Source: Citrus sinensis
Taxonomy: Eukaryota > Streptophyta > Magnoliopsida > Sapindales > Rutaceae
Length of the DNA stretch: 64,000 nt
Assembly (NCBI RefSeq): GCF_022201045.2
Contig: NC_068558.1
Coordinates: 5,547,501-5,611,500, forward strand
Direction: 5' to 3'
Shown: in pieces, positions 1,871 through 44,900 of the stretch
Position numbering within the stretch: position 1 is the first letter of the stretch
Layout of the letters: each line of letters starts with the position of its first letter
Notes under the pieces: generated by a model
The model's database searches: none
Told to the model about the DNA's origin: nothing
What the model saw: the letters and a program-made list of their open reading frames with translations, nothing else
Position numbers and translations under genes: made by a program

Positions 1871-1930
1871 CGTATTAGATTTTCTTAATCCGAAATCCCC
1901 TGCAACCCCTGGCTCAATTCCCAAAACAAC

Positions 1931-3007
1931 ATGCTTCCAATTTTCAGTTATTTTTCAATCTTCCTCTACACCTCCCTCCTTCTTTCCCGCCCAATTTTTC
2001 CCGCCAGAATCATGCCGGACGCAGTAACTATAATAGCCGCCAACAACACTGCCCACAGCGCCACGTGGCACGACTTCGCCCGCTTCCTGGACGCCGAAAT
2101 GGGCAGCAACATAACCGGCATGTCCGAGCTCAAGAAATACTTCACCCGTTTCGGCTACCTCTCTTTATCATACCCAAATTTTACTGATGTTTTCGACACT
2201 CAACTCCAATCCGCCGTCGTTTTGTACCAGACGAGACTTGGTTTACCTGTTACAGGCAAGCTCGATTCTGAAACAATTTCTACGATCATGTCCCCAAGGT
2301 GCGGTGTGAGTGACACGTCATTCCGCCAGAAGATACATGCAACGAAACGTTACTCGTATTTTTATGGCAAGCCAAGGTGGGCACGTGAGTCTCCGATGAC
2401 GTTAACCTACGCGTTTTCAAAAACCGACATGATTGATTACATAGGTTTAACGGATGTGAAAGCCGCTTTCAAGCGTTCTTTTCAACGATGGTCGTCCGTT
2501 ATTCCCGTTAATTTCACCGAGATATACGACTACGACTCCGCCGATATTCATATCGGGTTTTATCATGGGGATCACGGTGACGGACAGCCGTTTGATGGGG
2601 TCTTAGGCGTGCTGGCCCACTCCTTTTCCCCTGAAAACGGAAGATTTCATTTTGACGCGGCTGAGACTTGGGCCGTTGATTTGGAATCGGTTAAGTCAAG
2701 GGTGGCCGTTGACCTGGAGTCAGTTGCGACGCATGAGATTGGGCATGTACTTGGGTTGGCTCACACTTCAGTTAAAGAAGCTGTGATGTATCCGAGCTTG
2801 ACTCCCAGGACTAGGAAAGTGGACTTGAAGGTTGATGACGTGGAAGGGGTTCAAGCATTATATGGGTCAAATCCTAATTTCAAATTTAGCTCTTTATTGG
2901 AGTCGGAAAATTTTTCTAATGATGCTATTGCACTTAAAGGTAGAACATCAAAGTGGACCATTAATTCTTTGTTAGTGGTTTTATTCTTACTTTCCTTGAT
3001 TACATGA
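1931..3007 (+). CDS. Matrix metalloproteinase (M10A matrixin), secreted, probably GPI-anchored
   Basis: A zinc endopeptidase of 358 residues in one exon, as is usual for plant MMPs. In order: an N-terminal hydrophobic signal peptide (about 1-24); a propeptide with a peptidoglycan-binding-like fold (about 45-120); the cysteine switch PRCGVSD (122-128), whose Cys blocks the zinc in the zymogen; and the catalytic domain (about 140-315). The catalytic domain has the zinc motif HEIGHVLGLAH (268-278) and the Met-turn VMYP (285-288). The last about 18 residues are hydrophobic after a Ser/Asn-rich stretch, as in GPI-anchor signals. There is no haemopexin domain, as in other plant MMPs. All key residues are intact. 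The family acts in the apoplast and is linked to growth and defence. The particular Arabidopsis counterpart among At1- to At5-MMP is not decided here. Confidence 0.95.
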   Translation: MLPIFSYFSIFLYTSLLLSRPIFPARIMPDAVTIIAANNTAHSATWHDFARFLDAEMGSNITGMSELKKYFTRFGYLSLSYPNFTDVFDTQLQSAVVLYQTRLGLPVTGKLDSETISTIMSPRCGVSDTSFRQKIHATKRYSYFYGKPRWARESPMTLTYAFSKTDMIDYIGLTDVKAAFKRSFQRWSSVIPVNFTEIYDYDSADIHIGFYHGDHGDGQPFDGVLGVLAHSFSPENGRFHFDAAETWAVDLESVKSRVAVDLESVATHEIGHVLGLAHTSVKEAVMYPSLTPRTRKVDLKVDDVEGVQALYGSNPNFKFSSLLESENFSNDAIALKGRTSKWTINSLLVVLFLLSLIT

Positions 3008-4796: not shown

Positions 4797-5370
4797 TAAC
4801 TTTTTTTAAGTTTCTTGTAGAGACTTGACTAGTTTTAGATGAGTGTCGTGAAAGTTACTTTATCACCCCCAAATTATTATTCCCCTTTTTACTATTTGTG
4901 ACGTAGAAACTCCTTTAACATCAATTATTATACATCAATTTCTTAACAACGACCATCTCAAATCATTTGTTATTCGTTCATCGAATAATGAAATTCTAAT
5001 ATCTGTGTTATCTTTAGTTGAACAACTAACAATTCTTAAAATTATTTATTTAACTATTATTTTATTTAATAAATATCAACATCACCTTAATGTGAAACGA
5101 GATCTTTAATAACTTAAAAGAGATCAGATCAGATGATGAAGAAATGACCCCACTCTAATCCCTCAAATAGTATCTCTTAGAATTTTTAATCATTTAAAAA
5201 ATAATAATTTATTTTTCCTACCTAGTGGGGTTTTTTTTTTTTTTTTTAGTTTTTTGGTTGAAAAGTTACCTACATAGTTGATAAACATAATTTATCTTAA
5301 CGGGTCACCAATCGGATTAGAAACATGTATTGTGTGGAACCATTGATCTTTCAGAACGACATTATAATAA
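4797..5370. other. Intergenic DNA
   Basis: AT-rich sequence with a T-run near 5228-5248. No gene or repeat boundary could be supported. Confidence 0.35.
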
Positions 5371-5379
5371 TATCATATA

Positions 5380-5490
5380 GGGTTATTTTCTGCCAGCCCC
5401 CATGTGTTTCAACAAAAGTTGCCGTGCACTCTAAAGTTTCAACAACCATCACCAAACCCCTAAATCAGCACATTTAGCCGTTATCTTTGA
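5380..5490 (+). repeat. Left terminal inverted repeat of the Pack-MULE
   Basis: About 93% identical to the reverse complement of 13663-13773. The match stops sharply after GTTATCTTTGA. Confidence 0.85.
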
Positions 5491-5622
5491 CAGATAGTCA
5501 CTCCATTGAGTGAAAAGACTTGTCTGCCCTTGATGTGAAAATTAGGCATCCAAAATTTAGGAATATATCGGGTGGTGCTATTCACACACTTTATGGACTT
5601 AAACACCCTTTCAATGTTTACT

Positions 5623-5870
5623 TATTCGAGTGAACATCCTACACTCCTGAGATTCAAGGAATTGTATCACCTGGAAAAAGGTTACACGATCAGTGGAAAT
5701 TTTGGGATATACAATACACAACACAAGCAGCAGAATAAGCAGGAAGATAATACATACCTTTGAAATAGCAATAGCTTCATCTAAACCAGGAGGAGGAGTG
5801 TCCAATAGTTCTCCTAGTTTTAATTCTCCTAACTTTGTCAACCATGTACAACCAATCAAGAGAAGAATAA
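5623..5870 (-). pseudogene. Captured fragment of a GET3-type (ArsA/Get3, GET3B-like) ATPase gene, downstream exons
   Basis: On the minus strand, 5845-5758 encodes LGELKLGELLDTPPPG followed by LDEAIAISK. A perfect plant intron of 87 bp follows (5757-5671, GT...CAG). The frame then continues at 5670-5623 with VIQFLESQECRMFTRI. This matches the tail-anchored-protein-insertion ATPase family; the chloroplast GET3B type is the closest by recollection. The match ends abruptly after FTRI. Upstream of LGEL the resemblance to the parent gene decays with a one-base shift near 5846. Retention of the intron shows capture at the DNA level, not from cDNA. No complete ATPase can be made from this piece. Confidence 0.8.
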
Positions 5871-5885
5871 ATCAAGATAACGACA

Positions 5886-5904
5886 TCAATTATTTATTTA
5901 TTTA

Positions 5905-5935
<31 letters not shown>

Positions 5936-5960
5936 TGTGTGTGTGTGTGTGTGTGTGTTT
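5886..5960. repeat. Compound microsatellite (TTTA)n-(TTA)n-(TG)n
   Basis: A run of TTTA and ATT repeats passes directly into about eleven GT dinucleotides. It lies in what looks like intron sequence of the captured GET3 gene. Confidence 0.9.
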
Positions 5961-6103
5961 GCACTATACCCCCATACACATGGCAAAGACAACTGAATCC
6001 TGAGTTAACAAAGTTGCTAAGTTAAACCAACCAAAATGAAAATGAAGCAACTACTGAGACTATCCATGACAAATCAAAATACAAGTCCAATCCAGGTGTT
6101 GAA

Positions 6104-7454
6104 TGTTAGAAAATGCATATTTATAAAGGAGAAAACCGTCATTTTACATTTCAAGTCTTACTAACAACCCTTACTTTTATGTATTTAACCTTCTTGTGAT
6201 TTAATTACATGTGTTTTATTTTAATTAAGTATTTTATGTATTTTAGGGGCATTATAGTAATTTCAAATTAAAGGAGAGATCAGACGGCAAAACAGACATC
6301 ACTTTTGAACTTAGGACGGTCGAAAACCTTAAGAGGAGCATAAAAGAAAAAATGGCACTATTCATATGTACGGTACTATTCACGTGTACGGTACTATCTA
6401 CATTACTGTTCACAACACTGTTCACATAGACGGATCGATGACGTGGCATTGACCGATGATGTGGCATTGACTGATGAGGTGTCACGATCCTGTTGGGCTA
6501 AAATTCTTATGTATTGTTGATGGTGACGTGGCAGCATATCATTGGATGAAAAATCTCGCGTACGGTACATGCATCACACAAGATTATTTTCAACCAAACC
6601 GCGTTACTGTTCATCCGAGTCAAACCGCGTTACTGTTCATCCGCGTGGTCAAACCGCGTACTGTTGACTGATGATGTGGCGCAATCCTGAGCGTCCAAAC
6701 TAGTTTTAATCCGATGACTATGATTTACTTGATGTATCTATAAAAAGGGGGCATCTCCCTCCTAATTTGATATCTCTGAATCCATTTTTGGGATCCATTT
6801 TCTGTAATTCTCTCTCCATCTTGTATTTTCTTCGTATTTTAATAAATTCCCATTTTACCCCTAGTTCAATTATGAGTAGCTAATTTTCTTTTAAGCTTGG
6901 GTTGAAGGTGAAGTCTCAACATGTGTCATGGGCTTAATTTGGTAAATTTATTTTCTCTTCCCCTCTAATTTTTGTGGATGTTTTGACTTCTCGTCGACAA
7001 ATAATACTAATCTTGTCTAGTACCGCCTTGGTTTCACCAGCCCTCTAGTACAAGGTTATTATTATTTGGCACGATAAGCCCTTAGCACCATATTGATTAG
7101 AGCGTGGTTCATGAGGTGTGGATTCCCCCCTCATGATTTAATTGGCATTAATACAGATTATTTAGCCCATGATGCATGTTGATACGGATCCAGATACCCA
7201 AGTACGTTATTTCAATAGAATTTTCTTCAATTTATTCTCGCCATTTCAATTCCAAATTTAGAATTTATTCTCGCCATTTTAATTTAAGTTTTAGCATATT
7301 CCAAATCATTTCCACCATAAATCCAACAACCCATTTACAAAATTAATTCTATACACAATTAAAATCCACCTTCTCGTGGGATCGACACTCGTCACCATTA
7401 GTCTATACTACAATAGATTCGTGTGCTTGCGAGTACATTAAAATTTGCACAACA
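6104..7454 (+). repeat. Single Ty3/gypsy-type LTR, 1.35 kb
   Basis: The block begins TGTTAGAAAATG and ends GCACAACA, that is TG...CA. It has a promoter-like CTATAAAAAGG at about 6738-6748, an AATAAA at about 6840, and short internal repeats containing ACTGTTCATCCG and CAAACCGCGT (6590-6665). A tRNA-Asp-type primer-binding site follows at 7461-7478, which is typical of Athila/Tat gypsy elements. No second copy of this LTR exists in the window, so the element is not intact. Confidence 0.7.
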
Positions 7455-7460
7455 AGTTTT

Positions 7461-7478
7461 TGGCGCCGTTGCCGGGGA
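7461..7478 (+). other. tRNA-Asp-type primer-binding site
   Basis: TGGCGCCGTTGCCGGGGA matches the 3' end of plant tRNA-Asp plus CCA and sits 6 bp after the LTR end. Copia elements normally use initiator-Met tRNA (TGGTATCAGAGC). The primer site therefore belongs to the gypsy LTR, not to the copia coding region downstream. Confidence 0.8.
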
Positions 7479-7810
7479 GGTAAGTAATTTTTATTCATAG
7501 AATTAATTTTTGTGAATAATTTCCTTTATTTGTTTTATTGTATTTTTTATTAAAAAAAAAGTGAATCCGCATTTAGAGGTTAGTAATTTCTTTTCTTTTT
7601 CTCTTCTTTAAATTCCTATAATTTAATTTTCAAGTTATTTTTTTTTCTTTGTAATTTTTGTTTATCTTACTAATTCTTTTCAGTTAATTTATTTCACGTA
7701 TTTATTTTTGTATATTTTTATAGAAAGTTTGTAATAGCGCAATAAGGTTAGTATCGTAATTTCTCCCTCTTCTTTATTTTTATTTATTTTGTTCCCATCT
7801 TTATTTTTTA
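7479..7810 (+). other. Gypsy-type leader up to the junction with the copia body
   Basis: T-rich, untranslated-looking sequence follows the primer-binding site. The copia gag similarity starts near 7810, inside the domain and without its N-terminus. This places the breakpoint between two different retroelements at about 7800-7815. Confidence 0.5.
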
Positions 7811-10317
7811 TTATATTTCTTAAAGTGGCATATGTTCTTGATCCGAAATTGGAACCATTTCCAGAACCAAGAGAAGATGATACCGAAGTTGTTAAGGCTG
7901 CAAGGAAACGTCGTGAAGATGATGAATTGATGTGCCGGGGTCACATACTCAATACGCTTTCTGACAGGTTATATGATCTCTACAATTCTATGACTTCTCC
8001 GGTGGAAATTTGGAATGCTCTTGAGTACAAATACAAAACGGAGAAAGAAGGTACCGACAAATTTCTTGTATCTAAATATTTTGATTTTATTATGGTAGAT
8101 ACAAAATCCATTCTTGATCAAATACATGAGTTACAAATTATTGTTGCTAAGCTTCAAGAGTTAAAAGTTGAAATTTCTGAATCATTTCAAGTTGGGGCTA
8201 TTATTGCTAAATTGCCTCAAAGTTGGAATGATTATAGAAAGAAACTCCTTCATAGTAAAGAGAACATAACTTTAGAAGAATTGCAAAAACACTTGGTAAT
8301 TGAAGAAGAGACTAGGTCTCGCGAATCCAATGATAAGCATGATTCTACTAAAGTTAATGTTGTTGAAGCTAGTAAATTCTCAAAGAATTTTAAAGTCAAG
8401 AATGACAAGAAATTCAAAAAGTCCAGCACACAAAATTTTTCTAGAAATTGTTTCTTTTGTGGTAAGAAAGGCCATCACCAAAGTAATTGCAGATTCAAGA
8501 AGAAAAATGAAGAAGTGAATTCCCATAAAGCTAATGTGATTGAAAACAAATCTGAAGAGATTTGTGCTATGGTTTCTGAAATGCAAATTGGCATGATTAC
8601 CGAAACAAATATGGCTGAAACTAAGTCCTATGATTGGTGTCTCGATTCGGGTGCAACAATTCATGTTTGTAATGATAAGAAATTTTTCTTATCATACAAA
8701 GAAGAAACAGAAGGACAAATGGTTCTTATGGGGAACAATAATGTAGCCATAGAAGCAGGGAAAGGAGTAGTTGAGATCAACTTCACTTCTGGAAAGAAAG
8801 TCACATTGTATAATGTCTTTCATGTACCTTTCGTTAGGAAGAATCTTATTTCTGCTAGTTGTATGTGTAAGCATGGGCTTAAGATTGTGCTTGAGGGTAA
8901 TACTTGTATTGTGTCAAAGAATGGATTATTTGTTGGGAAAGGGTATTCTTGTGATGGAATGTACAAACTCAGCATTAATAATAATAATATCAACTTAGCT
9001 TATATTGTTGAGTCTTGTGATGTTTGGCATGCTAGATTAACACATTTGAACTTTAGATCTTTGAAATACATGTCTAAGCATGGTTTGATTAATTGCAATG
9101 ATGGTAAAGGTCATAAGTGTGAAATCTGCATCCAAGCTAAATTAACTAAGAAACCTTTTCCTAAAGCTGAACGAAATACTCAAATATTGGATTTAATACA
9201 TACCGATATTTGTGAGTATAATGGCATGTTAACAAGAGGAGGTAAGAGGTACTTTATCACTTTTATTGATGATTGTTCTAGATACACTTATGTTTATTTA
9301 CTTAGAACAAAAAATGAAGCTTTTGATAAATTTAAAATTTTCAAAGCTGAAGTTGAGAACCAAAAAGATAAGAAAATCAAAATGATTCGTAGTGATAGAG
9401 GTGGTGAATATTTCTCAATTGAATTTAATAATTATTGTGAAGAAGTTGGAATTATTCACCAAAGATCAGCTCCATTTACTCCTCAACAAAATGGTTTGGC
9501 TGAAAGGAAGAATAGGATCTTCACGAATATGATAAATTCCATGATCCTTAATGCAAAACTACCAAAGAATTTGTGGGGGGAAGTATTACTCACTGCATGT
9601 CATATTCATAACAGAATTACATCTTTGAAAACACATATATCTCCTTATGAAATTTGGAAAGGAAGAAAACCAAACTTGATGTATTTAAGGGTCTGGGGTT
9701 GTTTAGCTTTTTATAAAATACATGAACCTAAGTCATCAAAGTTGAGTGCTAGAGGTATAAAAAGTGTTTTCGTAGGATATGCTGAAAATTCCAAGGCTTA
9801 TAGGTTGTTAGATTTAGATTCTAATGTGATTGTGGAATCTAGAGATGTTAAATTTATAGAGAATAAATTTCAACATGATTATAATATTGAATTAGAATCA
9901 AGTATTGATCAACCATGTGTTAAGACTCCTAGTACCTCCACTAATAATAATAAAAGGAAAGAGTCTATGACATCTTTCGAACCAAGGAGGAGTCAACGTG
10001 AAAAGAAAGAAAAGAGTTTAGCTCCGGATTTTATTTCATCACAAGCACTACTCTTCTTGGTTGAATGGGATAGAAAGAATGTACTTAACAAAGTACCATT
10101 GTTGTTAAATATTGAAAAAGATCCAAAGACATTTAGCGAGGCTATGTCTTCTAGAGACGCTTCTTTTTGGAGAGAGGCGGTAAATGATGAAATGGATTCA
10201 ATTATGTTAAATCAAACATGGGTCTTGGTTTATCTTTCTCCAGGATCTAAACCAATTAGCAGCAAATGGGTATTTAGAAGAAAGTACAATAGTGATTGGT
10301 TCTTTGCAAACTTTTAA
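7810..10317 (+). pseudogene. Copia gag-protease-integrase coding region (5' truncated)
   Basis: Residue numbers count from 7789. A UBN2/copia gag region lacks its first about 80 residues. A CCHC zinc knuckle of form CX2CX4HX4C lies at about 221-234, and the aspartic protease motif DSG at about 286-288. A GAG-pre-integrase HHCC zinc region lies at about 425-458. The integrase catalytic triad D473, D536, E572 has the canonical 35-residue final spacing. The frame shifts by one extra base around 10285-10295 at the start of reverse transcriptase. The apparent N-terminus from 7789 comes from the leader and is not native gag. Confidence 0.9.
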
Positions 10318-10975
10318 AGCTAGATTAGTAGCCAAAGGGTTTAAGCAAAGAAATGGTATTGATTATTTCGATACATATGCCCCGGTAGCTAGGTTAACTT
10401 CTATAAAAGTGCTATTTGCAATTGCTTCATTGAACAATTTGTATGTGCATCAAATGGATGTTAAAACAGCTTTTCTTAATGGTGATCTTGATGAAGAAAT
10501 CTATATGGAACAACCTGAGGGATTTATTTTGCCTGAAAATGAGAAAAAGGTATGCAAGTTAGTCAAATATCTTTATGGCTTAAAGCAAGCACCAAAACAA
10601 TGGCATGAGAAGTTTGATTCGGTAATTTTATCACATGGTTTTAAGCATAATAATGCTGATAAATGTGTATATTTTAAATTTACGAATGATATTGGTATGA
10701 TTATATGCTTGTATGTTGATGACTTGCTTATCTTTGGAACTAATATGCAAGGAGTAGATGATACAAAGAAGTATTTAACTTCACAATTTAAGATGAAAAA
10801 TCTTGGTGAAGTAGATACTATCTTAGGTATCAAAGTGAATAAACATAGTGGGGGTTACTCATTGTGTCAATCTCATTATATAGAGAAAGTGCTTCTTAAA
10901 TTCAATTATTTGAAATTTAAAGAAGCTAATACCCCATATGATTCTAGTATTAAATTACTAGAGAATTCAGGCTGA
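10292..10975 (+). pseudogene. Copia reverse transcriptase segment
   Basis: This continues the polyprotein after the frameshift. The polymerase motif YVDD is encoded at about 10712-10723, and the upstream QMDVKTAFLNG motif is present. The frame ends at a TGA (10973-10975), and a second stop, TAA, follows four codons later. Both are compatible with C-to-T changes (CGA and CAA in the ancestor), an inference from the family pattern. Confidence 0.9.
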
Positions 10976-11014
10976 GTAGTAGCATAACTAGAATATGCTA
11001 GTGCTATTGGTAGC

Positions 11015-11695
11015 TTGATGTATGCTATGCATTGTACGAGGCCTGATATAGCATTTGCAGTTTGCAAAATGTCAAGATTCACGAGTAACCCTAGCGTTGA
11101 ACACTGGAAAGCAATTGGTAGGATACTTGGTTATCTTAAAAAGACCATTAATTTGGGTTTGTTTTATAATGATTATCCTGAAGTACTGGAAGGATATTCA
11201 GATGCTAGTTGGGTAACCAATACAAGAGATAATAAATCCACTTCTTGTTGGATTTTTACAATTGCTGGAGGAGCGATTTCTTGGGCTTCAAAGAAACAAA
11301 CGTGCATAACTCATTCAACAATGGAAAGTGAGTTTATAGCACTTGCGGCTGCAAGCAAAGAAGCAGAATGGCTGAGAAATTTATTGTTTGATATAATGTT
11401 GTGGCCACAGCCGATGCCATCTATTTCTTTGTACTGCGACAGTAAAGCTACATTGTCTAGAGCTTATAATAAAGTATATAATGGAAAGTCTAGACATATT
11501 AGCTTGAGACATGAATATGTGAAACAATTAATAGCAGATGGTGTTATTAATATTGTTTATGTTAGGACTAATAAGAACCTAGCAGATCCTTTAACAAAAT
11601 GTCTTTCAAGAGACTTAGTTAAGGATACATATTTTGGAATGGGATTGAAACATTTACATAATAAAGTCACCAACGACGGTAACCCAACTATGTAG
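11015..11695 (+). pseudogene. Copia connection and RNase H segment
   Basis: This is the same polyprotein frame resumed after the two stops. It encodes the copia RNase H with the YSDASW motif (about 11199-11216), the conserved E in STMESEF, and the ADPLTK tail motif. It ends naturally at TAG, 11693-11695. The intact C-terminus contrasts with the truncated N-terminus of the element. Confidence 0.9.
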
Positions 11696-12209
11696 TAGTT
11701 ATACCACTACTCCATAGTTAAATGGGTAATAACAAGTTGTTGTTATGTGACTGGTTTGGCACCGAGTAATAAATAATCTCATTCGAGAGTTTCGGTGTAA
11801 ATAGCTACGAGGTTGAGATTGAGTATTTACTCTTAATGAAGTTCAAGTCTTATAGTAGCTAAAGACATGATTTGAAACTTCACCTAAGTGAACATAAGAA
11901 ATGGTGCCGTTTCTAACAAGGTCATGGTTTAATCTTGTAAATGTTCATGAATCCAAGATAGAGCACAAGGCCGGAATAATGCTAACTATTGGAACACAAC
12001 TTTGAAATCTAGGATAGCTTATATGTGATGTATCTCCGGTATTTACTTAAGAGACAAAGTTTAATGCTTAGCACACTATTGTCTTGTAAATACTTTGAAA
12101 TACACTCACTAATTAAAGGTTAAAATCGAAAGATACCTTTTTGTATGTATAAGTTGATCATTAATAAATCTGAAAAATATTTCAATCTAGTGGGGATTAT
12201 AAGAGAGAT
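11696..12209 (+). other. Copia 3' untranslated region with polypurine tract
   Basis: Noncoding sequence runs from the pol stop to the 3' LTR. The purine-rich stretch AGTGGGGATTATAAGAGAGA at about 12188-12208 lies directly before the LTR start and is the likely plus-strand primer. Confidence 0.6.
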
Positions 12210-12993
12210 TGTAACATTTTTAATCTTTGGTTTGATATTCTGGACAAAAACGGTTTGCCGTTTATGGAGAAAACGGCTAACCGTTTAACTTCAGAGAGCA
12301 TGTTTTATGGTCTAGAGAAAACGGCTCACCGTTTATGGAGAAAACGGCTAACCGTTTAACTCCAGAGAGCATGTTTTATGGTCTAGAGAAAACGGCTCAC
12401 CGTTTATGGAGAAAACGGCTCACCGTTTATGGAGAAAACGGCTAACCGTTTAACTCCAGAGAGCATGTTTTATGGTCTAGAGAAAACGGCTCATCGGTTA
12501 TTGAGAAAACGGTTAACCATTTATGTACAGAGAGCAACGTATTTGACATTCTGGAATAAAACGGCTCACCGTTTATTAAGAAAACAGTTAACCGTTTATT
12601 TCCAGAAAGGCATCAACTAGAAACGGTTGACAAGCTTGAAAATTTCAAGTGTTAATCGTTGCAAATTCAAACCAAAAGAGTTTTTTGAAGAAGTATCATT
12701 TCGAATGGTTGCATTCTTTTGAATTAACATCTTCTTCATAAAAGAAATATACATATTTTGGAAATTATCATCAGATTTTGCAGGTTTCATATATGTTCTA
12801 GAAATACAATCTTATTTGTTAGAGATTGTATTCATGATTTGATATATCTTGGGGGTAATTTACCATTAATACTCTATAGCAAACCAAGATTGGAGAGGGC
12901 AAATAAGACCTTAAAGGAAAGTGTGCAAACACGTCTCAAATCCTAAGAAATTTTCTTTGTTCTTTGCCTCCATATTCTTATTATTTTTTAACA
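12210..12993 (+). repeat. Copia 3' LTR, about 784 bp
   Basis: It starts TGTAACATTTTTAATC after the polypurine tract and ends in TTAACA at the junction with the GET3 fragment. It contains the near-palindrome array at 12245-12612. No partner 5' LTR is present. The right edge is set by where the GET3 homology resumes (about 12990) and is good to a few bases. Confidence 0.65.
12245..12612. repeat. Array of about eleven near-palindromic AAACGG...CCGTTT units in the copia LTR
   Basis: Units of form AAACGGCTAACCGTTTA or AAACGGCTCACCGTTTA recur about eleven times, alone or inside a 71-bp higher-order repeat that also carries CAGAGAGCATGTTTTATGGT. Higher-order copies start near 12269, 12340 and 12432. 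Each unit has AACGG on both strands, the core bound by three-repeat MYB proteins in mitosis-specific activator elements. A regulatory role is inference. Confidence 0.85.
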
Positions 12994-13165
12994 CTAAAGT
13001 GGGGTGCCCATTATTTACAAATTTTACAGCAAGTGAAGCCGCACAACTTGTGTTGCCTACTCCCCCCCTTCCCACCTAACATGTAATATTTCCGTTGGGT
13101 CCCAGCCACCATCTTATCAAATCCAGATACAGCTTCCGAAAGAGCGGCCACTGATCTTACTGCCA
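12990..13165 (-). pseudogene. Captured fragment of a GET3-type ATPase gene, P-loop exon
   Basis: On the minus strand this encodes AVRSVAALSEAVSGFDKMV, then KYYMLGGKGG, then (after a frameshift) SCAASLAVKF and GHPTLV. This is the N-terminal nucleotide-binding region of GET3-type ATPases. The C-run at 13062-13068 has one base too many, which shifts the frame inside the P-loop. The invariant Lys of the GKT signature reads as Asn. The sequence stops at the retroelement boundary. It is non-functional and in the same orientation and gene order as the piece at 5623-5870. Confidence 0.8.
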
Positions 13166-13662
13166 TGAAATAGTAAATGCAACATAGTTATTGCACACTC
13201 AAAGAAATAAAACAGATAATCTCAAATACTATTCTATGAAGGAATTTCTTAAACAGCCGAGTATTATACAATTTTAAATAATTAGACCGGAAAATTCCCA
13301 ATTAAACTCTCAGCAGAACAATAATATTCATTTGCATGGAACTAAGAATTAGGATAATAATACATAAAATAAAAGATCAAGTTTCATATAAGCAAAAAGG
13401 CTTAAATAAATTCACTTTGTTTTTCTCCTCTGTCTTTCGTAACACTACACCACAATTTCACTTGACTATACGGTCCATCAATTATATTTATACATATACA
13501 TTCAGCTCACAACTACCAAGTCTCAATTGCCATTAAGACTACATGAAGAAACCAATATATTTTTTCTTTTTTACCCACTATCAAATTCTGCAACTGAGTT
13601 TTGTCGGTTTCTTTTTCTTTTTCCAGTCGTTTGTATCAAATCTCACTTTTGCCCTTCTACCA
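13166..13662. other. Right internal region of the Pack-MULE
   Basis: AT-rich sequence between the GET3 P-loop fragment and the right terminal repeat. No further captured coding sequence was recognised. It may be 5' flank or intron of the captured gene. Confidence 0.4.
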
Positions 13663-13773
13663 TCAAAGATAACGGCTGAATGTGCTGATTTGGGGGTCTG
13701 GTGATGGTTGTTGAAACTTTAGGGTGCACGACAACTTTTGTTGAAACATGTGGGGGCTGGCGGAAAATAACCC
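13663..13773 (-). repeat. Right terminal inverted repeat of the Pack-MULE
   Basis: Reverse complement of 5380-5490 at about 93% identity. It is followed by the 9-bp flank TATCTCATA. Confidence 0.85.
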
Positions 13774-14055
13774 TATCTCATATATAGATTGTAAAAAGAA
13801 GAATTTCTTTTAAAAAAAAAAATTGTACGAATCACGTGACTAATTTTAAGAGGGCCTCCGTGAGGTGAGCACGGCTACATCACCATGCTTTTGAATTGAT
13901 CCGATCCGTTTTCAACTGAAATGGGTATGTGGTCGTAGCAGACTAGTAGTCACTAAAAATATCTCTTCGGCTAAAACCCTAAACCCTTGCGCCGGTTCAC
14001 TCTTTAATTCCCACATTTAGACTCCCTCGTCTGTTTCCTCAGTTAAAATTAAATA

Positions 14056-14451
14056 ATGGCATCTTCTTGTCATAGATTCATCCGCAGATCATCCCTGTCG
14101 TCCATCAAATCCGCCTTCAGATCCAACGCCCCAAAATCCCCCACCGCCGCCTCCGCTCCATTCCGTCTCCCCACAAAATCATCTCCCTCTCCTCTTCGCC
14201 GCTTCTCCCTCTCCAGGTACTCGTCCGTCAACATCTTCATTTCTTTAAATTTTTGTCTTAATAATATTTAATTTAATTTTGTTTCCTCTTTTTTTGATAG
14301 ATCTCCATCGGAATTGGGATGCGCGCAGTCGCTGTTGCCGCTGCACAGCGTGGTGGCCGCGGCGAGGATGACGTCATGCCTGAGCGCAGCATCAAAGAGC
14401 TGCAGAGCGCTTTCACAGGGTACTCTCTGCTGCACCTCTCCCGGCCTCTAG
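14056..14451 (+). CDS. Small mitochondrial protein, NOXY2-like (long C-terminal form)
   Basis: Exon 1 is 14056-14216 and exon 2 is 14301-14451 (intron AG/GT...TAG/AT), giving 103 residues. The N-terminus is rich in Ser, Arg, Pro and Ala with no acidic residues, a typical mitochondrial presequence. Exon 2 encodes SPSELGCAQSLLPLHSVVAA and a Ser/Cys/Ala-rich tail ending GTLCCTSPGL. This matches a plant-only family of small mitochondrial proteins that includes NONRESPONDING TO OXYLIPINS 2, from recollection. The biochemical function is unknown. An alternative donor inside exon 2 (G/GT at 14420-14421) can join to an exon at 16022. The gene is convergent with the PPR gene downstream. Confidence 0.75.
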
Positions 14452-16537: not shown

Positions 16538-18373
16538 TCATCGTATATTTGATGAATGGGCAGCAACATTTTCCACCTCAATCCAACTACAACCGGCTTC
16601 TTTTCTCAGCCCTCTCTCCCGCATGAAGTTTCTAATCACACTTGCAACGTCCCAGTTGCCATGGCTTGTGTATAAATTACACAGCATAACGTAAACATAA
16701 TCACTATCACCCTCCAATTTAATCACCTCTGCGGCAGAAATCCTTGCTACATCCAGATCGCTACAAGCTCCAGAGGCACTAAGCAACGCTCTCCAAACCA
16801 CACCATAAGAGCCAAAACCCAGTTCACGTATCATCCTCTGTGCCCTCCAGACCTCCCCTTTTTGTCCCATAAGCCGAATCATTGAACAACAATGCTCAAC
16901 TGTTGGTTTAATCCCATAATCCTTGGTCATTGATTCAAAGTACTCACTTACCTTATCAAATGGAATGTCCGTATGGGAACATGCACCTAATACATTTAGA
17001 AATGTGACCGAATCAGGTTTTAAATCCCTCACCGTCTTCAATTGCTCAAAAAGCTCAATCACTTTGGTCAAATCACCATTCCTAGCATAGCCAGTGATCA
17101 TTGCATTCCACGTCACCAAGTTCTTTCTACATAGTGATCGGAACATCGAATCAGCAATCTTCACCTGTCCACATTTAGAGTACATGTCAAGAAGAGCACT
17201 CGCTACAACTATTGATGCGTCCAGACCTTGCTTTATCACGCAACTATGGATCAGCATTCCCCATGTTAAGGCTGAGAGACCAGCAATACCGCTCAGCATA
17301 GTGGAAAATGTGTACTCATCCATTGGGACATCTTTAGACTGCATTTCACCGAACAAATGTAGAGCTTCAGGAACTTGATTTCTGTTGACATATCCCGTTA
17401 AAATCGAATTCCATGAAGATGAATTTGGACTTGGCATACTCGATAAAATCATAATAGCATCTTCTATATCTCCAAACTGGGCAATGCCATTTATCACTTC
17501 ATTATACGAGATTGTGTCAGGATTAGGCAACCGATGGAGAAAACCGAACGCCAATTCAAGATTTCCATTTCTAGCACTTGCAGCTATAACCGAATTCCAA
17601 GAAATAATGTCCTTATCAATCATCTCGCCGAAAACCCCAATGGCATCTTCAACAGACCCGCATTTTCCATACATGTCAATCAAGCAATTAGCAATGACAA
17701 CGCCACGCTCCAGGCTATATTTAACAATCTTAGAGTGAATTGCCATGCCAAGCTGCAACGAACCCAATTGACCACAAGCCGCTAAAGCTGAAGTGAACGA
17801 ATAGGCGTCAGCATAAATTTCGCTCCTCTCAAGTTCAACAAACAAATTTAACGCCTTACGATATTTCCCAGATTGCACGTACCCAGAAATTAGGGAATTC
17901 CAAGACACCACACTTGGTTGAGGAATTTCAACAAACATTTTGTGAGCGTCAGCCAACGAATTAATTTTTCTATAGAAGCCCATCAAAGCAGTGGACACAA
18001 AGACATTAGAGAGAAACCCAGATTTTAAAATGTAGCAATGAAGCTGTTGGCAGTAAGTGTCCCAGCCCAGGTCACTTGAGGCTCGGAGCAAATGAAACAG
18101 GACATACTCATTTGGTCTATAACCAGAATCAAGCAATTGGGAGGCTTCATATACGCCAAGCTCAGTATTAAGGCCACCTTGGGCGAGTACTGAAATGACA
18201 TTTGTCCATGATTCAAGACCTGTTCTTTGGGGAAAGTCGTCAACAATGTAATTGTCAATGCGTAGACTTGTAGTGCTAGTGCTAATACAGTGACTCGATG
18301 TGCGAAGGGCACTGGGATGCTTTTTGGTTAGCAGATACTTTCGAGCTCTCTTGATTATAATAAATTTATGCAT
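16538..18373 (-). CDS. Pentatricopeptide repeat protein, PLS class with E domain, probably mitochondrial
   Basis: An intronless gene of 611 residues. The start chosen is the first ATG (18371-18373) after an in-frame TAA upstream; the five codons before it lack an ATG. A basic, Ser/Thr-rich N-terminus suggests an organellar presequence. Tandem PPR motifs with the VSWNSLISGY type of signature run from about residue 150 to 520, followed by an E/E+ region ending GCSWIEVE. There is no DYW deaminase domain. PLS-E proteins bind RNA and commonly guide C-to-U editing together with separate deaminase-bearing partners. The likely Arabidopsis counterpart is At5g47460, from recollection and neighbourhood. 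Target RNAs are unknown. Confidence 0.9.
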   Translation of the reverse strand: MHKFIIIKRARKYLLTKKHPSALRTSSHCISTSTTSLRIDNYIVDDFPQRTGLESWTNVISVLAQGGLNTELGVYEASQLLDSGYRPNEYVLFHLLRASSDLGWDTYCQQLHCYILKSGFLSNVFVSTALMGFYRKINSLADAHKMFVEIPQPSVVSWNSLISGYVQSGKYRKALNLFVELERSEIYADAYSFTSALAACGQLGSLQLGMAIHSKIVKYSLERGVVIANCLIDMYGKCGSVEDAIGVFGEMIDKDIISWNSVIAASARNGNLELAFGFLHRLPNPDTISYNEVINGIAQFGDIEDAIMILSSMPSPNSSSWNSILTGYVNRNQVPEALHLFGEMQSKDVPMDEYTFSTMLSGIAGLSALTWGMLIHSCVIKQGLDASIVVASALLDMYSKCGQVKIADSMFRSLCRKNLVTWNAMITGYARNGDLTKVIELFEQLKTVRDLKPDSVTFLNVLGACSHTDIPFDKVSEYFESMTKDYGIKPTVEHCCSMIRLMGQKGEVWRAQRMIRELGFGSYGVVWRALLSASGACSDLDVARISAAEVIKLEGDSDYVYVMLCNLYTSHGNWDVASVIRNFMRERGLRKEAGCSWIEVENVAAHSSNIR

Positions 18374-18388
18374 ATCTTTGTAATCCAA

Positions 18389-18640
18389 AACCGTATCATA
18401 GTTTGCATTGCTGACTCGGAGCTTTAAAGCAATTTGAAAGTTGTTTTAGAACATACCCGATCTTTTTTATGGTTCCATAGACAACTGTCTTTCACAATTT
18501 TTTTTTTTTTTTGAATTGTGACGGGGTTACTTGCGGCAGCAACTAGGGACAAAAAAAAAAAAAAAAAAAGCGAATGGCCCTAACTGCTGGATTCAGAAAC
18601 TAGGCTTATTCAATCAAACTTATCTCCCACGATTGTGTTT
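18389..18640. other. Upstream region of the PPR gene
   Basis: Presumed promoter. It contains homopolymer runs of T (about 18499-18512) and A (about 18552-18570). No definite TATA box is assigned. Confidence 0.4.
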
Positions 18641-37796: not shown

Positions 37797-38928
37797 AGTA
37801 TTCTAGCATATTGAACCTAATTTATATCTAACATTCATTTATTAAATGGTATAGTAATAATTTTATTAGTTTGATCCGGACTAAAATAATTTTCTAACTT
37901 CACCATTGATGGTAATTGACGGCAGAGTTGTGCCGACATGTAAAATATACTGCTTTATAATTTATTTGTTTTTCAATCTCATAATTAAAATTTATTTTAT
38001 ATTGTAAATGATAGTACAAAAATTTGGGAACTAAAATTTCACATATGTAGCTATTCCTTAATATTTTAGGCATAACAAGGTTTTTACCACAATAGACATG
38101 TAGTAGTGGATAGATTTTGGAGAATGGATAGACACATACACGGCAGATATGGTAATATCAAAAGAGTAGTAGATTTAGGGTAATTAATGTCCACCTTTTC
38201 CTTAAGGCAACATTAAATATTAATAAGAGTGTTTAACTAATGGAAGAAAATTTTCCAAAAATTCGACCAATGAGAAAACAACAGAGGAAGTGGTAGCAGC
38301 AGAAATGACGCTGGGAAAATTGGAAAATAATAACGCAGCCCACGTAAATAAAATTGCTCAAATACAATGGCGGTAAAATTGAAAATCACGCAGCGACGTC
38401 CCAAATAATAATAATAAACATAAAAAAGGTATTGAAGTATAAAAACAGCTACAAAATAACTCGACATATCACGAAGGGCGAAAAGATTAGGGAAAAAAAA
38501 AAGAGTAAATAAATAAAACTAAAATTAAGAAAAAAAACGTAGCTCTCTTCTTTCTTTGTCGTGTTGGCGGTGCGAAATCGAAGGCTCTGTCTCTATTCTT
38601 CTTCTTCTCTCTCTCTCTGTCTTTGATTTTCTATGCAAATTCTCTCCTCAATCCGTAAGTTAACTTTTTGTTATTTAAACCTTTTTTTTTATTCTTCAAT
38701 TTAATTCTATCCTAAAAAAATTTATAGGTTTGTTTAATTACTGGATTTAAAATAGATCTTAAAATCATAGATCTCGTTCTTTCTCTGAATTAGGGATCTC
38801 GAACTTCTTGCAATCATACAGCTCGAATATCGAGGTATTTTTGTAAGTTATTGTGTGATTGGAGGGTGTTTAGGTTTTGATTTGTGTAGATCGCGAGGAG
38901 TGAGGGTTGTCAGGTTATAGTCCGATCG
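37797..38928. promoter_or_regulatory. Upstream region and 5' UTR of SEC16
   Basis: A pyrimidine-rich tract TTCTTCTTCTTCTCTCTCTC at about 38600-38620 resembles a plant Y-patch or 5' UTR. A plausible 5' UTR intron has a donor CCGTAAGTT at about 38656 and an acceptor near 38790. The exact transcription start is not visible. Confidence 0.4.
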
Positions 38929-41900
38929 ATGGCTTCGAATCCTCCGCAGTTTCAGGTGGAGGATCAGACGGACGAGGACTTTTTCGATAATTTAGTTAAC
39001 GACGAGGACGATTTCGTTGGCCCCACCAAAACCCCCATCGCGACCAACATCACCACCTCCTCCACCTCCACATCCGCCGTTAACGATAAATTTACGGTTG
39101 ACTCCAATGACTCTGATTCTGACGATGCGAAAGCTTTTGCAAATCTGACTATAGATGATGGCGGAATTGATTCGAGACAAAAAGTTGCCACGGAATCGAT
39201 TGGGGAAAAGAAGAGTGAGCCTGATGATTCAATAGAAGATATTGGTACGGAGTCAATTGCTGAAAATAAGAGCAAGTGGAATGGTTGGGAACAAAACTTC
39301 GGTACAGAATTGAATTTGGATGATAAGAGTGATTTGGTTGCTGGTCGTTTGGACGAATCAAATAATGAGGGTGATGCAAAGGATGGGATGGATCCGGTTC
39401 CTCATAAGAATAATGGATCCATGGTTAGGGAGGTTGGGTGGAATTCATTTTATGCAGATCGAACGGAGCAGAATGGGAATCATGGGTTTGGTTCGTATTC
39501 AGATTTTTTCAGTGATTTGGGGGAGAATTCTGCAGAGTTCCCTGGAAAAGTGGAGGGAAATGCAAATGTGGCTCTTAGTGAAAATGGAGAAGCTAAGATT
39601 CTATCCAGAAATGAAGAATCTAAAACAGGTTCACTGTTAGGGAACTCCATTGATTATGGTAATTATGCTCAGTATCAAGAGAGTCAAGTTTATGGGGCTG
39701 AACAGAATGCAAATGGTCACGATTTGAATAGTACTGAATATTGGGAGAGTATGTATCCGGGATGGAAGTATGATGCAAATACAGGGCAATGGTATCAGGT
39801 GGGTGCAACAGCGAACACTCAACAAGGGAGCTCTGATACAACTTTTGGTAGTGATTGGAATGTTATTTCAGAGAAATCAGAGCTTGCGTACTTGAAGCAA
39901 AATTCTCAGTCTATTGTGGGGACAGTTTCAGAGACGAGTACAACTGAGAGTGTGTCCAATTGGAAGAGTCAGGTTTCTCAAGTGGATAATAATGGTTTCC
40001 CCGAACATATGATTTTTGATCCTCAATATCCTGGTTGGTATTATGATACAATTGCTCAAGAATGGCGCGCATTGGAGAGTTATAATTCATCAGAACAATC
40101 TATAGTTCAATCTCATGATCAGCAGAGTCAAAATGGATTCACTTCTGCAGATGCGTATTTCAATAATAGTAACAGTATTTATGGTGAATTTGGGCAGGCT
40201 AATGATTATGGGTCTCAAGGTGATGGTATCCAAAGCCTACATGACAAGCAAGCTGATAATTATGGGTCTCAAGGCCTTGGCAACCTAAATCAAAATGGAA
40301 GTTGGGCTGAGTCTTATGGTAATTACAATCAGCAGGGTTTAAATATGTGGCAACCCAAGGTTGATGCTAATGCTATGTCTGTTTCAAATTTTCGTCAAAA
40401 TCAGCCAGTGGATAATTTTTATGGTTCCAAGGCTTCTTTAAACAGCCATGTGGATCAACAGAATGCTTTCAGTTCTATGCGGTCTATTCCATCATATGAC
40501 AAAGCAAGTCAAGGTCATGGTGTTGAAGCTAAAGGGATTTCTGGGTTTCAAAACTTTGTGCCCAGTGGGGACTTTAGTCAGCAGTTGAATCAGGCATATA
40601 CGAAGCAGAATGAACAAATGCAGCACTCAAATGACCTCTATGGCAGTCAGAACAAAGTAACTGTTCCACGGCAATCACTTCAGAGTGATTATCAGAATTC
40701 TTATGCTCCAAACATTGGAAGATCATCTGCTGGGCGTCCTCCACATGCATTGGTTACTTTTGGTTTTGGTGGAAAACTCGTAGTAATGAAAGATAACAGT
40801 TCTCTTCAGAACTCAGCTTTTGGAAACCAGGTTAGGACTTGGATATTTTCTCACTGTTTATTTTAAAAGGGCAGTGAGTTGGCTAAAAAAGAGCAGTTGC
40901 AGAAGATTTTTGGGATAGTCTTCAATTCCATACTAAAAAAATAAAAAATAAAAGTTCTGTTTTAGTTTATGGGCTAAATACTGAATTCTTATGCTGTGGC
41001 TAATAATTAATTTTTTTTTTAATTGTGAAGGGTCATGTAGAAGCATCCATTAGTGTGCTGAACTTGATGGAAGTAGTGCTGGGAAACACTGATGCTTCTA
41101 GCACTGGAACAGGTGCTTTTGGTTACTTTCGTGCTCTGTGCCAACAATCTTGTCCAGGTCCATTGGTTGGTGGAAGTGTTGGAAGTAAGGAGTTGAATAA
41201 GTGGATCGATGAGAGGATTGCTAACTGTGAATCTCTTGACATGGATTATAGGAAGGGTGAAGCATTGAAGTTGCTTCTCTCATTACTTAAAATAGCTTGT
41301 CAGCATTATGGAAAACTTCGATCTCCTTTTGGCACTGATGCTACATTAAGGGTAACCTTCTATTTTATTTTGTTTTTCTTGAACTGGGTCATGAACCTTC
41401 TTTTTTTTGGGTTTAAAAATGTTTTGCATTTATTTTCTTAATGTATTTTCTGCAGTGCTTTCCACTTGCTCTACCACTTTGAATTTGATCCTAGATTATT
41501 ACCTTGTTGTATGCTGCATTTGGTAACTTTTGCATAAAATCATGTTTCTCATGTGGTGTTAAGCACCTTGTATATCTTGGCAAAAATGCATCCGTATGCC
41601 CATTATTTGCAAATTGTATTGAAATAAAACCCCAATTGGTACTGTCAACTCTATGTAATTGATAAGTCGAAATCCTGGTGATTTGTTTATAAATAAATAA
41701 ATCTTTAAGCTATTTGTAAATGAGAACGTTGTAGTTTACATTTCATTTTCTGCCAATTTATATCGAGGTTATTTCATTTTTTTTAAAATTATATCTTTTG
41801 AGCTATTGTCTTGCATTTGTTTTGCCTTCATAACTGTGCAATCTTTTTAGTAGTTTTCACAGAGCTTTTAGTGCCATTTAGGGAGATAAGTTAATTTTGC

Positions 41901-44900
41901 ATTGGATGTTCTTTTGCTTTTGTGGTGTTGATAGGAAAGTGATACCCCAGAATCAGCAGTTGCTAAACTTTTTGCATCTGCCAAGATGAATGGCACACAG
42001 TTTGGTGCTCTTAACCACTGCTTGCAAAATTTGCCATCAGAAGGACAGATTCGGGTATGCTTTGGATCACTACTCTTTATCCATGGGACAAACATTTTGT
42101 CATTTTTCTGAAGAAAACTGTGCAATGTCTATTCCAGGCAACTGCTTCTGAGGTGCAGAACCTTCTGGTCTCTGGTCGGAAAAAGGAGGCTCTTTTATGT
42201 GCACAAGAAGGTCAGCTGTGGGGGCCTGCACTTATCCTTGCATCACAACTTGGCGAACAGGTTTGGCTTTTGTTTCACGTTGTTATCTCTTTCTTAGGAC
42301 ATGGATTTATATTTGAGAAGAAGACTGTCAAATTTGTGCTTAAGCTTGCACCTGTCTCGTCTTTCTCACACATACTGTCATTCACTTGAGTGCTTACTTT
42401 GGGACATGGGAGTTTGCAGTTTTATGTTGATACTGTGAAGCAAATGGCCCTTCGGCAGCTGATAGCAGGATCTCCTCTGCGGACATTATGCTTGCTTATA
42501 GCTGGGCAACCAGCAGATGTGTTTGCCACAGAAGTGCCAGCTGTTAATGGTTTTCCTGGTGCTGTTACTATGCCACAACAGTCCACAAACGTAAGATATT
42601 GGTGTCATAAGTATCTGTCCTAATATTTTATCACTCAATTTATAATTTAAATTAATTTGTCTTTGTGGTATTGGGGATTCATATACTAGAAATTATACAT
42701 CCTTAGAAAAAAAAAGTGGGAAATACATACTGGAGCGAGGGCAAGTTTCTTACTAGGACTAATCGGAAAGTGTGTCTGATCATTCTGGTTGGGGTGGTGA
42801 TTTTAGTCCCTTTGCGCAACAATATGGTTATATTTTAGCTCGAAGAGTAAATATGCCTGTCCGAGGACCAGGTTACCAAACTCTTGAAAACTTGTGGCTT
42901 TTAGAAAACTGTTATGTCATTGTCATATTTCTAAAATTTACAACTCTTCTTTCTGTATATACGTTAGTTGTGGAAGATTTAATGTTTGTTCTGTTTTGTT
43001 TTTTCGTTTTTCTTTCCCCCTTTTCCTAACTCTGGAACTACAGTTTGGAGACAATTGCATGCTCAATGATTGGGAGGAAAATTTGGCTGTGATAACTGCA
43101 AATAGAACAAAAGATGATGAACTCGTGATTATTCATCTCGGAGATTGCTTATGGAAGGACAGAAGTGAGGTATATTCAGGTTCATGGCTAATTTTCTTTA
43201 CATTTTATGGAACTATTTCATTCCTGAATCACAATTGAGATTTATGCTTCAGATCACTGCTGCTCACATCTGCTATTTAGTTGCTGAAGCAAACTTTGAG
43301 CCATATTCAGATAGTGCGAGACTTTGTCTTATTGGAGCAGATCACTGGAAATTTCCTCGAACATATGCTAGTCCAGATGCTATTCAGGTGCTCTTTAATA
43401 TTTTTGTGGCTCTTGTTAATGACTAGATTACATGGTTATGGTTTTTTAATCCAACCAAGAAAATAAAATGCAGATTTTAGTTGCTTTTTGTGGATGCTAT
43501 TTTCGGGTAGTGTTCTGGACTTTTAACAATTTCCAATACTAGTATGTATATTAAGCTGGGAATATTTTCTCAGTTATTAGAAATATTGATTGATTTCAAT
43601 GAGTTTTCGTTAGTATGATTGTGTTCAAGTGGTTGCAACTCATCTCTCTTTCTGAGAACCACCAGCCCTGCAAGGCGACATGACATGCACACAGGACAAA
43701 TAAACAAAGCACTATATGCTTATCTGTGCACCCAGTAATTTATTTTGTATATTATGCTTCCTAAGAAAGTCTTAATTGGTTGATTGAATGTTGTATGGAC
43801 AGAGGACCGAGTTATATGAATATTCAAAGGTGCTTGGAAACTCTCAGTTTAGCCTGCTACCCTTTCAGCCATATAAGCTCATATATGCACACATGCTCGC
43901 TGAAGTGGGGAAGGTTTCAGATTCTCTAAAGTATGTGAAGTATTCGCCTTTTCAATGTTTCTGCCAGTTCTGCCTTCAGTTCTTTCTAACAGGATGAAGT
44001 TAATTCAGGTACTGTCAAGCTTTATCAAAATCACTGAAAACTGGCCGAGCCCCTGAAATTGAAATATGGAAGCAATTAGTATCATCTCTTGAGGAGAGGA
44101 TTAGAATCCATCAACAGGTATTTTTTGGTTGCCGGTGAGTAATTTCGTCAACTTTCAGGAATTTAATTCTAGTCCTAATAATGAAATATGTCCACAGGGT
44201 GGATACACAGCAAATCTGGCTCCTGGAAAATTAGTTGGCAAATTGCTCAACTTTTTTGATAGTACTGCACATCGTGTTGTTGGCGGTCTACCACCGCCTG
44301 CACCATCCGCATCTCAAGGAACTGGTCAAAGTAATGAACATGATTACCAACCTATGGGCAATAGAGTATCAGGTAGTCAGTCAACAATGGCTATGTCATC
44401 ATTAATACCTTCTGCTTCTATGGAGCCCATCAGTGAGTGGGCTGCTGATGGCAACAGAATGACAGTGCCTAATAGAAGTGTCTCAGAGCCAGACTTTGGT
44501 AGAACCCCGAGACAGGTGGGTAATTGCTATAAAGTAGAAAACCTTGTGTTTACTTTTAACTGCTTGATGTGCTTGCCCATTATCTTGTATAATGTTTTTA
44601 TGAGGTCTGCTTTGGCACTTGGTAGCATCAGGTTGATTCGTCAATGGAAGCAACCTCATCTAGTGCAGAAGGCAAAGCATCAGGCTCAGGTGGGACATCT
44701 CGCTTTTCTCGTTTTGGATTTGGCTCAGGGCTTTTGCAGAAGACAGTGGGGCTGGTCTTAAGGCCTCGAGCGGATAAACAGGTAAGTCCTTGAGGTATAT
44801 TTCCATGTTATGTCAAGATTAAATTCATAAAACTTTCATGGAAGAATGATTGAAAATCTCTGTTGGTACAAAAGTTGATCGTTTTCTGTATTTCCATTTC

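Follow-up and report, generated by a model that had tools for sequence, protein, structure and literature searches.

A probable Pack-MULE of Citrus sinensis with a fragment of a GET3-type ATPase gene, interrupted by nested LTR retrotransposon sequence

A GET3-type gene fragment between Mutator-like termini

The window analysed here is a 64,000-nucleotide stretch of the Citrus sinensis genome (G000:C3:5547501-5611500), and the interval of interest within it spans positions 5380-13773 (8394 bp). This interval is very probably a Pack-MULE, that is, a non-autonomous Mutator-like element (MULE) bearing a gene fragment, here from a gene for a GET3-type ATPase; the element would originally have been about 2.0 kb long and was later the site of nested insertions of long terminal repeat (LTR) retrotransposons. 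An original prediction made from the sequence of the window had proposed a Pack-MULE, and this proposal is supported by sibling elements with the same termini, by an intact donor gene elsewhere in the genome, and by sharp junctions between element and donor sequence. The two GET3 pieces lie apart because LTR retrotransposon sequence stands between them and because 501 bp of donor sequence are missing. All sibling, donor and retrotransposon matches described below come from the genome's own contigs (299.7 Mb searched, 11 contigs).

The features of the element, in window coordinates, are as follows; handles such as L041 denote loci elsewhere in the genome.
5371..5379, no strand: left 9-bp flank TATCATATA, candidate target site duplication (TSD), 7/9 against the right flank
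5380..5490, plus strand: MULE 5' terminal inverted repeat (TIR), 103/111 against the other arm and present in sibling elements
5380..5622, plus strand: MULE 5' terminal and subterminal sequence, with homology to L041 and L043 as far as 5624
5623..6096, minus strand: captured piece 1, with part of exon 6 (5623-5670), the 87-bp intron 5 (5671-5757), exon 5 (5758-5832) and part of intron 4; donor L040 4622-5083, 21 mismatches in 461 aligned sites
12994..13598, minus strand: captured piece 2, with the P-loop part of the gene in exon 2 (12994-13159, 166 bp) and part of intron 1; donor L040 3518-4120, 23 mismatches in 600 aligned sites
13599..13773, minus strand: MULE 3' subterminal sequence and TIR (arm 13663-13773), homologous to one end of L044
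13774..13782, no strand: right 9-bp flank TATCTCATA, used in the flank comparison

The two captured pieces (474 and 605 bp) share by far their strongest other match in the genome, a single minus-strand locus on contig C4 (C4:4865017-4866582) with which both are collinear (E-values of 2.4e-189 for 5623-6096 and 3.4e-269 for 12992-13598). The comparison for piece 2 used a 607-base stretch beginning at 12992, so that 12992-13598 is matched to L040 4122-3518. BLAST identity to the C4 locus is 93-94% across introns and exons alike, and 95-96% at aligned sites. The remaining matches of the piece 1 region are to sibling MULE sequence, to a short part of a paralogue on C8, and to one stretch of 43 bases. 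The original prediction had described two same-strand pieces of an ArsA/Get3-type gene, a description that is borne out and extended to 5623-6096 and 12992-13598. It had also described a perfect 87-bp intron; this intron is indeed of full length with its GT..AG ends kept (donor intron 5, L040 4949-5035), with the qualification that it differs from the donor at two bases. The donor segment between the two retrotransposon insertion points (L040 4121-4621, 501 bp) is missing from the window.

The joints between MULE and donor sequence are sharp, as expected of a Pack-MULE. At the left junction, homology to L041 and L043 reaches position 5624 and donor homology begins at 5623; at the right junction, donor homology stops at 13598 and homology to L044 begins at 13600. 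The inclusion of introns means that capture would have occurred at the DNA level, and a processed pseudogene was ruled out on the same ground.

Termini and sibling elements

The TIRs begin with GGGTTATTTTC, and their 103 identical positions out of 111 agree with the 93% identity given in the original prediction. Since the flanks resemble each other too, the alignment of the arms extends to 5370-5490 and 13663-13783, with 92% identity over 121 nt. Searches with the termini gave 15 genome matches for the query 5380-5560 and 16 for the corresponding arm of L045, counts that include the arms in the window. Nine complete elements could be delimited, namely the window element and eight siblings with the same termini, whose existence had been proposed as a check on the prediction. 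The siblings are L041 (645 bp), L042 (569 bp), L043 (651 bp), L044 (1479 bp), L045 (1323 bp), L046 (1074 bp), L047 (1207 bp) and L071 (1576 bp), with the ends of L042 and L043 adjusted by one base during delimitation; their arms match at 90-106 positions across 111-115 alignment columns. The small members of 0.57-0.65 kb resemble miniature inverted-repeat transposable elements (MITEs) and are dispersed across the genome. Four further places (L048, L049, L050 and C4:20282665) hold a single arm or a remnant only, the last of them being known from match coordinates alone. Positions 1-245 of the window element are 82-83% identical to L041 and L043, and positions 8221-8394 are 86% identical to one end of L044.

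Flanking sequences provide evidence for the length of the TSD in this family. The flanking 9-mers are identical in seven of the nine complete members, with 8/9 matches for L047 and 7/9 for the window element, the same count as in the original prediction; the 9/9 match of L041 falls within a TAA repeat and is uninformative. When flanks from different members were paired, at least seven positions matched in 8/72 pairs and all nine in 0/72. The identical flanks of the siblings, together with the absence of nine-position matches among these mismatched pairs, therefore indicate that the family makes a 9-bp duplication. The flanks of the window element on their own do not exceed the chance level, since at least seven matches occur in 8/72 mismatched pairs and the flanks are AT-rich. 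An additional TC in the right flank would turn 7/9 into 9/9 and might thus account for both mismatches. A PIF- or hAT-like element was ruled out because the siblings show 9 bp, compared with the 3- or 8-bp TSDs given for those groups in PMC8903248.

The donor gene

On the plus strand of the donor region (L040, C4:4861500-4871400), 11 exons with GT..AG introns between them make up an intact reading frame (L040 3182-7564, C4:4864681-4869063). The 413-residue product matches PF02374 (ArsA_ATPase) at 8e-72 and has an intact P-loop, GKGGVGKT. It also matches 28 distinct sequences in the PDB, most of them named as GET3/ArsA-type ATPases, with ATPase ARSA1 (5zme) as the best. The check for a match better than GET3/ArsA thus led to an intact gene of just this type, and the parental gene sought in the original prediction is present on C4 and has intron 5 in common with the captured copy. 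The first exon comprises 66 codons ahead of the ATPase domain, forming an N-terminal extension. This long extension, together with sequence likeness, suggests that the donor is probably of the organellar (plastid) GET3B type. The gene family named in the original prediction is therefore upheld, with the correction that the donor is longer and probably of an organelle-targeted GET3 type. The best match to ARSA1 leaves the GET3B class unsettled because the algal ArsA1 and ArsA2 are termed cytosolic in PMC5382584.

The donor has a paralogue on C8 (27126-27127 kb; L052), and two more distant loci lie on C3. The C8 paralogue was rejected as the source of the captured pieces, as it is only 84% identical over 88 bp and 83% identical over 138 bp, against 93-94% for the C4 gene. 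The two C3 loci were rejected as well, being 50% identical at the protein level over 52 residues.

State of the captured copy

The captured copy differs from the donor at 44/1061 aligned sites (23/600 and 21/461 for the two pieces). Exon sites differ at 14/289 and intron sites at 30/772 (Fisher p 0.49; the start of exon 2 may be one base off), so exons have diverged like introns, as expected without protein constraint. Exon 2, which encodes the P-loop, carries a one-base insertion, and the Walker-A lysine is replaced by asparagine. The copy looks dead, and appears to be a decaying pseudogene that has lost its function. At plant substitution rates between 6.5e-9 and 1.5e-8 per site per year, the divergence would correspond, very roughly, to 1.4-3.2 million years.

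Conversely, the captured stretch might be functional, with an antisense transcript, a possibility raised in the original prediction, or small RNAs dampening the donor gene. The orientation of the pieces on the minus strand and their 95-96% identity to the donor at aligned sites would suit such a role. We nevertheless regard it as very unlikely, given that the stretch is broken up by 6.9 kb of retrotransposon sequence and that exon divergence resembles intron divergence.

Nested LTR retrotransposons

LTR retrotransposon sequence occupies 6097-12993, which is 6897/8394 bp (82%) of the interval. The original prediction named both the kind of element and the gene family correctly; it overlooked this portion. 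Its features are as follows.
6097..7454, plus strand: 5' LTR (TG..CA) of LTR retrotransposon A, from genome copies
7455..7816, plus strand: truncated leader of element A; 35 siblings extend to query 1651-1720
7461..7478, plus strand: primer-binding-site-like TGGCGCCGTTGCCGGGGA of element A, from sequence
7817..12993, plus strand: Ty1/copia element lacking its 5' LTR and start, with gag, integrase and reverse transcriptase (RT) domains in broken frames and a 3' LTR; 97% identical to L051
12198..12993, plus strand: copia 3' LTR, its start set by comparison with L051 and its stop lying where donor homology resumes

Element A is a high-copy element. The query 6097-7816 (1720 bases) had 3248 candidate matches, and among the 40 scored, 35 other places cover nearly the whole query at 90-95% identity; among the matches scored, four places match the LTR alone at 95%, stopping at query 1358-1366, and four further matches are weaker. 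The primer-binding-site-like TGGCGCCGTTGCCGGGGA is presumably of the tRNA-Asp type. The copia body is 97% identical to L051 over 4719 aligned bases and contains, in order, the Pfam domains Retrotran_gag_2, Pol_BBD, gag_pre-integrs, rve, SH3_retrovirus and RVT_2. The frame at 11015-11692 had no Pfam match and is presumably RNase H. Tandem units of about 71 bp rich in AAAACGG lie inside the copia LTR (12247-12613), and similar AAACGGTTAACCGTTT sequence is present within the sibling MULE L045.

Alternatively, the retrotransposon sequence could stem from one insertion of a single chimeric LTR element (LTR of element A, copia body, copia 3' LTR) accompanied by the loss of 501 bp at the target. Consistent with such a chimera, the interval contains no LTR pair, and the retrotransposon part starts with one A-type LTR on the left and finishes with one copia LTR on the right. 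A chimera is nevertheless unlikely: of 1225 candidates, none of the 39 other matches that were scored spans the A/copia junction, each of them starting at query base 202 or beyond, and the two sides have different single 5-bp target candidates, CCAGG on the A side and CTAAA on the copia side.

Other explanations and the proposed history

The GET3 pieces might instead be an ordinary segmental or processed duplicate, with the inverted repeats being a chance pair of separate MITE insertions. The dispersal of small MITE-like family members makes such insertions conceivable, yet the pieces retain introns, so the duplicate would not be a processed one, and donor homology ends within 2 bases of MULE subterminal sequence on both sides. 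Furthermore, three of the eight siblings hold other sequence, with a separate match in the genome, at the same position between their arms. Taken together, these data leave a chance pairing exceedingly improbable.

Several points weigh against a Pack-MULE carrying a fragment of a GET3 gene, or against parts of this interpretation. The element's own TSD is imperfect (7/9) and not significant alone. The MULE transposase domain PF10551 is plentiful in the genome, yet of the 150 matches scored among 899 candidates, even the nearest lies 59 kb from a family place (coordinates compared by eye), and the same 150 include no autonomous element with such ends. With no transposase partner found, the lengths of the TIRs and of the TSD are the basis for assigning the element to the MULEs. 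Only one copy of the GET3-bearing element was found in the genome, so that movement after capture lacks support from copies. Finally, the GET3B class name derives from general sequence likeness and the N-terminal extension.

Under the Pack-MULE interpretation, the element would have copied one contiguous stretch of about 1.57 kb, from intron 1 to exon 6, of the GET3-type gene on C4, possibly by filler synthesis during gap repair. With a MULE transposase presumably acting in trans, the element would then have inserted on C3, about 280 bp upstream of the apparent start codon of another gene. Retrotransposon A would later have inserted beside CCAGG, and copia beside CTAAA, both within the captured stretch. 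A single deletion could then have joined the A leader to the copia body, taking with it the remainder of A, the copia 5' LTR and 501 bp of captured sequence. The ends and siblings, the donor, the junctions and the nested elements are observed; this order of events, with one deletion, would be the simplest history.

Other inserts in the family and the search for a transposase

Inserts that match another locus are found in three of the eight siblings, and hence in four of the nine complete elements, with three matching places in all. The interiors of L046 and L071 both match C3:3965.7-3966.8 kb at 95-98%, a place whose reading frame we take to resemble a REF6/ELF6-type demethylase tail; the 99-residue frame in L046 had no Pfam match. 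In both elements (L046:3255-4328 and L071:38-1613) the first 38-53 bp of donor-like sequence are repeated in inverted orientation at the opposite end, so that the terminal repeat now includes host DNA. In L044 (L044:1496-2974), most of the interior aligns with a single place, C5:30472689-30473643, at 85% identity. L044 may be an older capture, with the C5 place as a candidate source and a putative gene. The multi-copy interior of L047 was not taken as a gene capture.

Seven open reading frames (ORFs) of at least 80 residues lie in 4900-14300, and no DNA transposase was found inside the element among the four scanned against Pfam, of which two have copia domains and two (the GET3 remnant and 11015-11692) match no family. 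The remaining three ORFs (94, 86 and 110 residues) lie antisense to copia frames or to the GET3 remnant. A short reading frame in L045 (L045:3024-3254) is shared in broken form with L050 (L050:4139-4586), which holds only short broken frames related to L045. The 70-residue L045 ORF, presumably GRF-zinc-finger-like, had no Pfam match. The frame common to L045 and L050 may be a remnant of an autonomous element.

Neighbourhood of the element

Some 280 bp separate the right end of the element from the downstream ATG of a reading frame on the plus strand (13773-14056); this frame, which begins MASSCHRFIRRSS, we take to be NFD6/NOXY2-like, and the element may sit in the promoter region of this gene. 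Other long reading frames nearby are at 1889-3004 (plus strand), 16541-18445 (minus strand) and 38890-46353 (plus strand), presumably encoding a matrix metalloproteinase, a PPR protein and a SEC16-like protein, respectively. A tRNA scan across the window found none.

Relation to known systems and significance

Rice has more than 3000 Pack-MULEs, Mutator-like elements with gene fragments (PMC8903248, PMC13317346). The structure in C. sinensis is clearly that of a Pack-MULE, with long TIRs, 9-bp TSDs in the family, an intron-bearing host-gene fragment between the arms, an intact donor elsewhere and pseudogene-like decay, and it represents an ordinary, well-known kind of event with a clear donor. 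It differs from other Pack-MULEs in that the donor is GET3-type, two fused LTR retrotransposons interrupt the element, and no autonomous partner was identified. Capture of GET3 by a Pack-MULE was not found in the literature searched, which left out most subscription papers; the one paper there that mentions both Pack-MULE and ArsA, PMC5745447, has each word once.

The closest known counterpart of the donor is probably plant GET3B (PMC12040988); the donor itself has a frame of 11 exons and 413 codons, the PF02374 domain and an N-terminal extension. Of the exons, the captured copy retains no more than exon 5, 166 bp of exon 2 and 48 bp of exon 6, and it has gained a one-base insertion and lost the P-loop lysine. 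The copia part resembles Ty1/copia (L051) in having gag, integrase ahead of RT, and a 3' LTR in common with L051, and differs in the absence of the 5' LTR and start and in its fusion to the 5' end of another element.

A more far-reaching proposal combines repeated capture of host DNA by this MULE family (a GET3-type gene, a second donor common to two elements, and possibly a third) with a role for the GET3 copy as a natural source of antisense RNA or small interfering RNA (siRNA) acting on an organellar ATPase for membrane-protein insertion. We consider this combination highly improbable.

As a case of a plant DNA transposon that captured part of a gene, the element is well resolved, and the donor, the ends, the siblings and the later nesting can all be read. 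It also illustrates that a single captured fragment, once divided by retrotransposons, can look like two separate remnants of genes. Within the same family, the pair of elements L046 and L071, with donor-like sequence in both inverted repeats, may be useful for testing models of host DNA acquisition by MULEs.

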